The notes under the pieces are model-generated. The model had not been told where the DNA came from. It worked only from the letters and a program-made list of their open reading frames with translations, and made no database searches. 64,000 bases of DNA from Bdellovibrionales bacterium (GTDB lineage: Bacteria; Bdellovibrionota; Bdellovibrionia; Bdellovibrionales; UBA1609), in NCBI GenBank assembly GCA_027459485.1, contig DAIDIG010000005.1, positions 1 through 64,000 of the forward strand, read 5' to 3'. Shown in pieces: positions 22,434-64,000 of the stretch (position 1 is its first letter; every line of letters begins with the position of its first letter). The position numbers were made by a program, and so were the translations under genes.

Positions 22434-22455
22434 TCCCCTGCATCTTCGGGGGGAG
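22434..22455 (+). promoter_or_regulatory. Hairpin competing with the protease ribosome-binding site
   Basis: TCCCC (22434-22438) can pair with the start of GGGGGGAG (22448-22455), which also holds the ribosome-binding site 4 bases before the ATG. Folding could lower translation. Confidence 0.3.
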
Positions 22456-22459
22456 ATAA

Positions 22460-24268
22460 ATGAAAAATTCAATACTGATTCTAGCGGGGGCGATGGCGCT
22501 GACAGCGTGTGGGAGCAAAAGCCACAACTCAGCGATTCCAGTCATCCCTAAAAATCAAACGGTTTATTACGCACCGACCGGCAAGACCGAAACCGGGGTG
22601 ATCGTTTCTGGCATTTCGAAATCGGCGTTAGAAAAACTGGTCGCGCAAAATAAGCAGTTGCGGGTTCGTATCGTAAATCCGCTGCGCGGCCTTTACGAAT
22701 TTTTCGGCCAAGATTTGCGAACCGTGACCGCCGAGGTTGACACAAAAAGTGTGCTTGTTGAACAAAACTCATACGTCGACAGCCCTCGTAAAAAGGTTCT
22801 TGATTCAAACTGGTCGAATTTGAAGAATTTGGCGACCGCAAGCTCCGGCGGTCAACTAAATGATAATCCTCTCGTCTACTTATACAAAAAGCTTCAGGGC
22901 GTAACAGTCACAGGCCCTCAGCTCGACTTCGTCAACAGTTGTCATTTTGATGAAAGTCGCGCACCAAAAGTAACTGTGCTGACCTCGCAGCCCCAAAACC
23001 TGCAAAAAACCATGACGTTCTTCGACCTTGGCCAGAGCGTCAACTTAGACGGAGATCAATCTCAGAGCCTTGACGGCTCGGCTCTGTCGTATCAGTGGTT
23101 GGTCACTGTTCCTGAAGATTCAGACCTTGGGCCGACTTTTGGCAGTTCGAGTCAAATGAACTTCACTCCGGATACGACGGGAATGCATATTTACTCGCTT
23201 GTCGTTAAAGATTCGAATGGCTTCTGTAACGCGAAGTTCAGATACATGTACGTTTCAGCGAAAGATCCATTTAAGGTGGGCCCGTACTTCCCAGCGTCGT
23301 TATTGGCCAAAGTCGACCCGAACGGCAAAATGTTTTGGCCGGTTTTTCAAGTGGGCTCCGTCGCGGGCTGGCCGCAATCCACCGGCCGCGGTGTGACGAT
23401 CGCGGTTATCGACTCGGGTGTGAATTACAATCATCCGGCATTGCAGCCCAATATTTGGCAGAATATTGGCGAAATACCCGATAACCAAATCGACGACGAT
23501 AACAACGGCTTTATTGATGACTACGTCGGCTATAATTTTTCACAGAACGACGCTTATCCGTTTGACGACTACGGCCACGGTAGTCACGTAGCAGGCATTG
23601 CAGCCAGCCAACTTTTTGGCGCGGCTCGCGAAGCTCATATCATGCCGGTGAAAGCAACCTTCATCGGAAACGGCTTTGATATCGCTACCGTTGCGGGTGC
23701 GGTCGAGTACGCCGTCGATAACGGGGCGAACGTCATCAATATGTCGGTCGGTTGGCAGGATGACTATCCGGTCATGCGGCAAGCGTTCGAATACGCGCAA
23801 AAACATGACGTGCTGATTGTGGTCGCGGCCGGTAACGATTCGTCTAATAACGATGCCGTGGCTGATTACCCCGCCAACTACAACTTTGACAACGTAATTG
23901 CAGTGGCGGCGTCTGATCGAAAAAACAATCTGGCTTTTTATTCCAATTTCGGTGCCCACAACGTGCCGATCGCCGCTCCGGGCGGTACGCAAAACAAGAT
24001 GGTATGGTCCGCTTACAAAAAGAATCCTCGCAACCTTCTTTTTGTGGGCATGGCAGGTACCTCGATGGCGTCACCGCTCGTAGCGGGAGTTGCGGCCCAA
24101 GTTTGGGGGGTGAACCCCGGCATGACCGCTCAACAGGTAAAACAAATCTTGCTGAGCACGACGAAGTATTCGGCGGCACTTGCCGGCAAAGTCACATCCG
24201 GCGGTGTTGTTGACGCTCAAGCGGCTATTGCAGCGGCTGAAAAAACTTTGGGCAGCCCCCTTCTTTAG
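22460..24268 (+). CDS. Subtilisin-like serine protease lipoprotein (S8)
   Basis: 602 residues. Lipobox ALTAC17 directs it to the envelope. Residues about 160-275 form an Ig/PKD-like domain (LGQSVNLDGDQSQSLDGSALSYQWLV). The C-terminal half is a peptidase S8 domain with a full triad: D318 in AVIDSGVN, H373 in YGHGSHVAG and S535 in GTSMASPLVAG; N459 in VAAGND is the oxyanion-hole asparagine. It should degrade proteins at the outer membrane or, if exported to the surface, outside the cell. The N-terminal part (FGQDLRTVTAEV) may be an inhibitory prodomain. Divergent from the LysR gene. Confidence 0.9.
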   Translation: MKNSILILAGAMALTACGSKSHNSAIPVIPKNQTVYYAPTGKTETGVIVSGISKSALEKLVAQNKQLRVRIVNPLRGLYEFFGQDLRTVTAEVDTKSVLVEQNSYVDSPRKKVLDSNWSNLKNLATASSGGQLNDNPLVYLYKKLQGVTVTGPQLDFVNSCHFDESRAPKVTVLTSQPQNLQKTMTFFDLGQSVNLDGDQSQSLDGSALSYQWLVTVPEDSDLGPTFGSSSQMNFTPDTTGMHIYSLVVKDSNGFCNAKFRYMYVSAKDPFKVGPYFPASLLAKVDPNGKMFWPVFQVGSVAGWPQSTGRGVTIAVIDSGVNYNHPALQPNIWQNIGEIPDNQIDDDNNGFIDDYVGYNFSQNDAYPFDDYGHGSHVAGIAASQLFGAAREAHIMPVKATFIGNGFDIATVAGAVEYAVDNGANVINMSVGWQDDYPVMRQAFEYAQKHDVLIVVAAGNDSSNNDAVADYPANYNFDNVIAVAASDRKNNLAFYSNFGAHNVPIAAPGGTQNKMVWSAYKKNPRNLLFVGMAGTSMASPLVAGVAAQVWGVNPGMTAQQVKQILLSTTKYSAALAGKVTSGGVVDAQAAIAAAEKTLGSPLL

Positions 24269-62849: not shown

Positions 62850-63578
62850 TCACCTCGTACCCTCTAGCCCGGCGTTCGCTTGTCGCTTTGCTTGTCTCGA
62901 GCGCAGAGCTTGTTCTTTTAGATAAACTATGCGCCGATCAAGTTGCTTTTTTCGCAATCGCAACGCGGAAATGTTTTTTGAAAGCAATGTGGTCTGTGTG
63001 CGATCTTGACGAATACGATACTCAAGAGATTTTTGTTCGTTGGTGTCTCGCGAGACGGACTGATTGAGCGTGTTTTGCTCATTTTTCGCCGCAGCCAAAT
63101 CGGCTTCAGCGATCCGAAGCCTCGTTCGAGTTTTCGCTAGCGCCGCCTCAATCTCGGCGATTTTTTTACGCGCCACCGCGACCTTCTTGGCATATACGTT
63201 TTGCTGGGCAATCGCGAGTCGCGTTTGTTCGTTATAGATTTGAATCTTACGTTTAGCAGCTACGGCTTTAAGACGAGCCTCGCGTTCTTTCTTTTGCGCT
63301 TGAGCGCGCATTTTCGCTTCGGCGAGCTTTGCTTTTCGGGCTCGCGCTTTCGCATCAGCAGCTTCGGCTTGGGCCGCGACGGAGTCTGACATGACCGCAT
63401 CAACGTCCGTTTCAACATCATCGACGGAGTCATCGGCATGCGCTGCACGGCCGAAGACCTGGAAGACCTGACTGACCGGTAATTTAAACGGGGCGTGCCA
63501 AACAATAAAAGCCCCAGCTGCTGCAATGGCGGCTGCGCAAATTCCAAGTGGAAGCCGATTTTTAATGCGATTTCTCAT
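62850..63578 (-). CDS. Membrane-anchored coiled-coil protein
   Basis: 242 residues from the ATG at 63578. One membrane helix (GICAAAIAAAGAFIVWHAPF) precedes an acidic stretch (ADDSVDDVETDVDAVMSDS) and about 160 residues of Ala/Lys/Arg/Glu-rich coiled coil (AKARARKAKLAEAKMRAQAQKK). No catalytic motif. TTAGGC lies before the ATG; a longer reading from 63677 crosses the palindrome at 63635. Adjacent to a PilZ gene and divergent from an amidase. Confidence 0.65.
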   Translation of the reverse strand: MRNRIKNRLPLGICAAAIAAAGAFIVWHAPFKLPVSQVFQVFGRAAHADDSVDDVETDVDAVMSDSVAAQAEAADAKARARKAKLAEAKMRAQAQKKEREARLKAVAAKRKIQIYNEQTRLAIAQQNVYAKKVAVARKKIAEIEAALAKTRTRLRIAEADLAAAKNEQNTLNQSVSRDTNEQKSLEYRIRQDRTQTTLLSKNISALRLRKKQLDRRIVYLKEQALRSRQAKRQANAGLEGTR

Positions 63579-63634
63579 GCCTAACACTTCGGATTTTTTC
63601 TCAAAAAAATGTATATTTTTCATGTAGATACCCA

Positions 63635-63649
63635 GAATAGAACCTATTC
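63635..63649. promoter_or_regulatory. Palindrome upstream of the sigma-54 promoter, candidate enhancer
   Basis: GAATAG-AAC-CTATTC, perfect 6-bp arms. It lies 79-93 bp before the sigma-54 promoter, a usual distance for an NtrC-type activator site. A degenerate second copy may lie near 63683-63698. Confidence 0.4.
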
Positions 63650-63727
63650 GATGTAAAGGACCCTTAATAGGCACCATTTATCTCGAATATAAGCGGTATT
63701 GATCGGTGCTCGATCCTGGCCGGACCT

Positions 63728-63743
63728 TGGCACAGCGATTGCT
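63728..63743 (+). promoter_or_regulatory. Consensus sigma-54 promoter
   Basis: TGGCAC, AGCGA, TTGCT: GG at 63729-63730 and GC at 63741-63742, exactly 10 bp apart, matching the RpoN consensus in full. Predicted +1 near 63754. Confidence 0.85.
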
Positions 63744-63753
63744 ATATGTATTT

Positions 63754-63807
63754 GGCATCCCCCCTTGGCGGCCTGGCCCCCCTTACCCTCCAGGTCGCTT
63801 TTTTTTT
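63754..63807 (+). ncRNA. Predicted 54-nt sigma-54-dependent RNA or amidase leader
   Basis: From the predicted +1 at 63754 to the end of the T-run at 63807. It holds a C-rich 5' tail and a hairpin whose 13-nt loop reads CCCCCCTTACCCT; with the next bases the loop includes CCCTCC, complementary to a GGAGGG ribosome-binding site. Either a small RNA or the terminated form of the amidase mRNA. Prediction only. Confidence 0.45.
63768..63807 (+). terminator. Rho-independent terminator before the amidase gene
   Basis: GCGGCCTGG pairs with CCAGGTCGC (9 bp, one G-U), 13-nt loop, then nine T. It lies between the sigma-54 promoter and the amidase ATG (63834). Confidence 0.82.
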
Positions 63808-63833
63808 GCCCAAAATAACTTTACGCTGAATGT

Positions 63834-64000
63834 ATGCTGTCTTTCTTTGGGCTTATTTTTATCGTTCAGTCCGCTTTCGCGTTTCAAGTTTTTTTAGACC
63901 CGGGCCACGGCGGCCATGATCAGGGCACAAGCCGAGGAAAAGTCACTGAAGCTTCTATTACTTTGAAAGTGGTTAAAAAAATTGGTGCCGACTTGTCGGC
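63834..64000 (+). CDS. N-acetylmuramoyl-L-alanine amidase (start only)
   Basis: 55 codons before the window ends. Signal peptide (MLSFFGLIFIVQSAFA), then FQVFLDPGHGGHDQGTSRG, the Amidase_3 opening with the first zinc histidine in DPGHGGHD. These periplasmic enzymes cut the link between muramic acid and the stem peptide. An ATG at 63830 is out of frame. No ribosome-binding site is near the start. The gene lies only 26 bp after a terminator, so its expression depends on readthrough, or on an internal start that I cannot see. Confidence 0.85.
   Translation, partial: MLSFFGLIFIVQSAFAFQVFLDPGHGGHDQGTSRGKVTEASITLKVVKKIGADLS

Follow-up and report, generated by a model that had tools for sequence, protein, structure and literature searches.

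A candidate sigma-54-driven small RNA with two unpaired C-runs, conserved across the Bdellovibrionales

Several bacterial small RNAs are known in which an unpaired pyrimidine-rich segment is directed at a purine-rich mRNA leader. In Helicobacter pylori, the C/U-rich terminator loop of RepG base-pairs with a homopolymeric G stretch of an mRNA leader, its target being the single G-repeat of tlpB-hp0102 (PMC8295292). The alpha-r14/cuckoo RNAs, among them NfeR1 of Sinorhizobium, carry pyrimidine-rich unpaired motifs complementary to the Shine-Dalgarno sequence; NfeR1 folds into three hairpins with an identical CCUCCUCCC, and PnfeR1 is without a sigma-54 signature (PMC10746234). A sigma-54 promoter is found at the enterobacterial sRNA GlmY, for which the QseF/GlrR site has been written as TGTC-N10-GACA (PMC8745638) or TGT-N12-ACA (PMC6075780). 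The first ncRNAs of the genus Bdellovibrio were reported in a study of B. bacteriovorus that also covers merRNA; its attack-phase sRNAs are 98–655 nt long, none being shorter than 98 nt, and are partly FliA-dependent, while growth-phase ncRNAs could not be defined (PMC3627812).

The locus described here lies in a genome of 2.75 Mb in 34 contigs, at the end of the stretch of 64,000 nucleotides that was analysed (the window). This end is a divergent intergenic region that holds a promoter, a C-run, a hairpin and a T-run on the + strand, arranged as follows.

62850–63677, − strand: ORF for an exported coiled-coil protein of 275 aa, the divergent neighbour
63727–63743, + strand: predicted sigma-54 (RpoN) −24/−12 element TTGGCAC-N5-TTGCT, TTGGCACAGCGATTGCT, with GG at 63729–63730 and GC at 63741–63742
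63754–63807, + strand: candidate sRNA gene of ~54 nt (about 55), from the predicted +1 at ~63754 to the end of the T-run
63759–63764, + strand: 5′ unpaired C-run (C6) at ~+6 of the RNA, probable contact segment 1
63768–63776, + strand: left arm of the 9-bp terminator stem, GCGGCCTGG
63777–63789, + strand: C-rich loop of 13 nt, CCCCCCTTACCCT, probable contact segment 2
63790–63798, + strand: right arm of the 9-bp terminator stem, CCAGGTCGC
63799–63807, + strand: T-run of the intrinsic terminator, nine T; a T-rich tail occurs in nearly all copies
63834–64000, + strand: Amidase_3 gene (PF01520, 5.9e-46), 259 aa, ATG at 63834, extending beyond the window; a neighbour, outside the RNA

An earlier sequence-only reading had reported an RpoN promoter TGGCAC-N5-TTGCT, a 9-bp hairpin at 63768–63798 and nine T, and all of these are present as described; the GC-rich hairpin is directly followed by the T-run, as in an intrinsic terminator. 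In the loop that it had quoted, CCCCCCTTACCCTCC, the last CC is part of the stem. From their sequences we take the genes that follow the amidase to be rph, rdgB, a short gene, prs, rplY, pth and ychF. A Pfam scan of the divergent coiled-coil protein (62850–63677) gave no match. Exported coiled-coil proteins adjoin the RNA in other loci too, being encoded downstream of it in L151 and L171, and these flanking genes sit on different sides of the RNA in the window's genus and in Bdellovibrio.

Homologues were collected at three levels. Across 84,980 species, a pattern that specified the hairpin only, with no promoter and no T-run, matched 92 stretches. Those titled Bdellovibrionota have a T-rich tail and, except for one (L104), GG-N10-GC as well; the stretches from other phyla are without a T-run. 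Because the scan fixed the letters of the stem, stem invariance among its matches is partly a result of selection. In the amidase upstream regions of relatives, the promoter–C-run–hairpin unit is kept while its distance to the amidase varies. Finally, 36 copies of the RNA part, with the promoter excluded, served to build a covariance model (R1). In the source genome R1 matches 63754–63808 with 71.3 bits as the sole copy, and no additional copy was found up to E = 10. Among the 141 genomes of the order Bdellovibrionales the model detects the RNA in 109 (51 of 66 genera), practically always as a single copy, and across the rest of the phylum in two more genomes only (G270 and G271), which belong to another order of the same class and took no part in model building. 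Both have the sigma-54 element, both C-runs and the downstream amidase, and the letters of their stem are changed yet still paired (GGCGACTTGG/CCAAGTCGCC). Loss of rpoN was considered as the cause of RNA absence in small genomes and was rejected, as most such genomes retain rpoN. On these sequence comparisons there is a strong case that the site is a real small-RNA gene, previously unlisted.

With respect to novelty, none of the Rfam 15 covariance models matches the RNA. A genome of 3,782,950 bases (G062), which we take to be that of B. bacteriovorus HD100, carries its copy on the minus strand at 2620001–2620058, a position for which the published table of attack-phase sRNAs from B. bacteriovorus has no entry (PMC3627812). 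No later description of the RNA was found in the open-access literature, which leaves its absence there unproven. The initial remark that no RNA of this kind had been described thus agrees with both the Rfam search and the published table.

Since R1 excludes the promoter, the sequence upstream of its matches could be assessed separately. Of the 109 copies, 107 have enough upstream sequence for this. A sigma-54 site, defined as GG-N10-GC that agrees with the consensus at no fewer than 8 of 12 letters, directly precedes 103 of them, compared with 2.0 expected from dinucleotide-block shuffles; in control windows taken from these loci the frequency of such a site is 1.1%. The element is missing from the copies of G013, G026 and G035 and from the weak copy of G045; the G040 copy is interrupted by a contig end. 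Two of these copies, in small genomes, have the C-runs and the hairpin with no recognisable sigma-54 site (L191, identical with L104, at G026:C9:22163-22222, and L190 at G013:C50:61-117), where another class of promoter may have taken over. In L198 (G035:C20:62392-62449), hairpin and loop are retained and the sigma-54 element and the 5′ C-run are both lost, a natural sign that these two work together. The source genome has rpoN (G000:C4:34606-35085), a gene detected in 127 of the 141 genomes of the order, as well as 20 matches to the sigma-54-activator domain, of which the lowest-scoring possibly belong to other AAA proteins; rpoN and enhancer-binding proteins are thus found in the same genome as the element. 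We infer from these features that the RNA is made under sigma-54 control.

At the single locus, neither the promoter nor the hairpin is significant when taken alone. The source genome contains 10 exact copies of TGGCACN5TTGCT versus 4 of the reversed control, and the fold of the hairpin reaches z = −1.5 against shuffles, values that would be compatible with a chance sigma-54 match in front of a hairpin that merely terminates another transcript. It is the conservation in relatives that makes the site real: the element stands at nearly fixed spacing from the homologous hairpins in the 103 of 107 copies, and the gene upstream in the window is divergent, leaving no transcript to end. We regard coincidence as extremely improbable.

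The RNA itself is conserved in structure and in its unpaired segments. Over 100 aligned copies, 99.4% of the stem cells are paired, in an alignment that was fitted to R1 and so favours structure, and controls in which it was slid drop to 16–52% paired. Two-sided changes occur at 5 of the 9 stem pairs, in 57 cells versus 24.1 in shuffles, around a conserved stem sequence GCGRCC/GGTCGC. In 106 of 109 copies the 5′ C-run is five or more C long. In most copies it starts 15–16 nt downstream of the C in the −12 GC, which would place its beginning only a few nucleotides into the RNA. A loop C-run of at least five is present in 102 of 109 copies and the loop is G-free in 90 of 109. Two C-runs of at least five occur together in 100 of 109 copies and CCTCC in just 54 of 109. 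The GC content of the loci ranges from 30 to 66%, and the C-runs are retained even at 30–38% GC. A short coding gene was rejected, as loop lengths are spread over the three frames (43/34/32) and no frame is kept. In genus g61, three copies (L182, L192 and L206) have CTAACCTTTTC or TCAACCTTTTC in place of the T-run after a perfect stem; termination may work differently in these copies.

We then considered whether the transcript could serve as a leader of the gene that follows. In most families, the amidase and rph follow downstream of the RNA and point the same way, an arrangement that is old because it is also present in the other order (G270 and G271); in the window's genus, only ~25–30 nt separate the T-run from the start codon in most members. 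Both observations would suit an attenuator, in which the sigma-54 transcript forms the leader of the amidase–rph operon and the hairpin must be overcome, and a terminator overridden for the amidase had been one of the two options offered by the sequence-only reading. However, the RNA has no constant same-strand link to one downstream gene. Members of the genus Bdellovibrio encode the amidase divergently from the RNA, behind its promoter; the gene that follows the RNA in G047 and G086 is convergent with it; in G026 the RNA precedes rph and no amidase was found beside it; and in G044, G053, G048 and others the RNA sits elsewhere in the genome. With divergent or convergent neighbours the attenuator fails, which argues that the function common to all copies is that of a free RNA. 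In addition, no alternative antiterminator hairpin is visible, the transcript has no G-run with which its C-runs could pair, and the operon includes housekeeping genes too. We consider an attenuator quite unlikely as the general explanation, although read-through may contribute to amidase expression in the genus of the window. The statement that no room is left for another promoter before the amidase is insecure, since three members of the genus have a −10-like TTACGCT, TTATGCT or TTAAGCT a few nucleotides upstream of the ATG; a leaderless amidase start from a promoter overlapping the T-run is possible on this sequence. The other option of the sequence-only reading, an activator-controlled small RNA, is strongly supported: the alignment of relatives that it had proposed as a check shows joint conservation of promoter, C-runs and hairpin across the order and outside it. 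We conclude that sequence comparison demonstrates the gene with its promoter, covarying hairpin and two C-runs, and likewise its single copy, its distribution and its lack of dependence on one particular downstream gene.

We therefore favour, with moderate confidence, an independent trans-acting sRNA of ~54 nt that is driven by sigma-54 and whose C-runs pair with G-rich stretches of mRNAs. An activated enhancer-binding protein would allow sigma-54 polymerase to start at ~63754, and transcription would stop at the hairpin, yielding an RNA that consists of the 5′ C-run and its own terminator with a G-free C-run loop. The exposed C-runs would pair with G-rich mRNA stretches, most simply G-rich Shine-Dalgarno regions, and this pairing would block translation without Hfq, much as RepG pairs with G-repeats.

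Predicted duplexes of either C-run with GGGGGG leaders range from −15 to −19 kcal/mol, those with AGGAGG from −6 to −9 kcal/mol. The suggestion that the loop pairs with GGAGG ribosome-binding sites is doubtful, given that the conserved feature is a plain C-run; ordinary GGAGG Shine-Dalgarno pairing was rejected on the weak predicted duplexes and on the low count of CCTCC (54 of 109 copies). GGGGGG-N3-9-ATG occurs 75 times in the source genome versus 23 in the reversed control (about threefold), and 76 versus 27 times in the HD100 genome. Genomes without the RNA show GGGGGG enrichment at start sites too, to an equal degree in several, and a GGGGGG regulon is thus not tied to the RNA. Signal peptides are modestly enriched in the source genome, being predicted for 31 of 46 GGGGGG genes versus 8 of 22 AGGAGG genes (p = 0.02), and for 20 of 47 genes of the window; the GGGGGG genes of HD100 have them in 8 of 26 cases, with no enrichment. 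Only three homologous pairs are common to the lists of the two genomes: one is esterase-like (33% identity), and the other two involve a single subtilase, whose two matches may be paralogues. A GGGGGG target regulon of the RNA is at this point a lead only. Within the window, a GGGGGG Shine-Dalgarno region (22448–22462) precedes a lipoprotein-like gene (22460–24268), one of ~45 such starts in the genome. In HD100, GGGGGG precedes the start codon of a flagellin gene (L307, G062:C1:562120-562132), which directly follows the published APsRNA3 (561,854–561,981).

Hfq was detected in 0 of 14 Bdellovibrionales genomes, the source genome included (E 0.001), in a search that did recover Hfq from control species such as E. 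coli and B. subtilis; this fits GC-only pairing that needs no chaperone. In its broadest form, an ancient Bdellovibrionia sRNA would act as a general chaperone-free translational brake, its C-runs silencing mRNAs with a GGGGGG Shine-Dalgarno sequence on one sigma-54 signal, and the silenced mRNAs would often be those for exported proteins, hydrolases or flagellin. We hold this generalisation to be rather unlikely.

The same C-runs could have a protein as their partner. CsrB-type RNAs hold CsrA, and by analogy two C-rich single strands might hold a C-binding protein of the KH, S1 or cold-shock type in place of mRNA. The two repeated C-runs of similar length, the avoidance of G in the loop and the conserved stem GCGRCC/GGTCGC, which suggests recognition of sequence besides shape, would all be in keeping with a decoy, but one gene copy and merely two sites per RNA speak against it, and we judge it unlikely.

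If the RNA is an sRNA controlled by a sigma-54 activator, a binding site for the activator would be expected upstream of the promoter. In family f8, a CTGTC-N9-GACAG palindrome (at least 8 of 10 letters) was found in 44 of 59 genomes, compared with 3.0 expected, and in family f10 in 4 of 8 genomes, mostly 46–80 nt upstream of the −24 element (for example L151 and L220). It is a likely candidate for the site of an enhancer-binding protein. No site of the f8 type was found in f1, the family of the window, indicating that the activator may differ there. In genera g38 and g61, a second block around CGACAATTGTCG lies further upstream of the palindrome and is another candidate activator site.

How the predatory cycle is controlled after transcription has hardly been studied in the Bdellovibrio group, where the search for Hfq also came out negative. 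To this group the locus adds a conserved regulatory RNA of defined promoter class that is small enough for clean deletion or mutation. It also offers a test of the terminator-loop C-run as a general, chaperone-free mode of regulation beyond Helicobacter.

Compared with the systems described at the outset, the RNA is like the attack-phase sRNAs and merRNA of B. bacteriovorus in being intergenic and in occurring in the same group of organisms (PMC3627812). With GlmY it shares a sigma-54 promoter, and the TGTC-N9-GACA of families f8 and f10 resembles the QseF/GlrR site; however, the spacer is one base shorter, RNA size and structure are unrelated, and f1 is without the site. Pyrimidine-rich unpaired motifs link it to the alpha-r14/cuckoo RNAs, but in place of three hairpins each with CCUCCUCCC it has one hairpin, C-runs and a sigma-54 promoter. 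Like RepG it is a single-copy sRNA with a run of C in its terminator loop (C/U-rich in RepG), with the difference that pairing is predicted here, that no shared sequence family is known, and that the present RNA is ~54 nt long and has an extra 5′ C-run and a sigma-54 promoter. From these comparisons, we class it as a new sRNA family, unrelated to RepG, whose action is probably that of a RepG under sigma-54 control.
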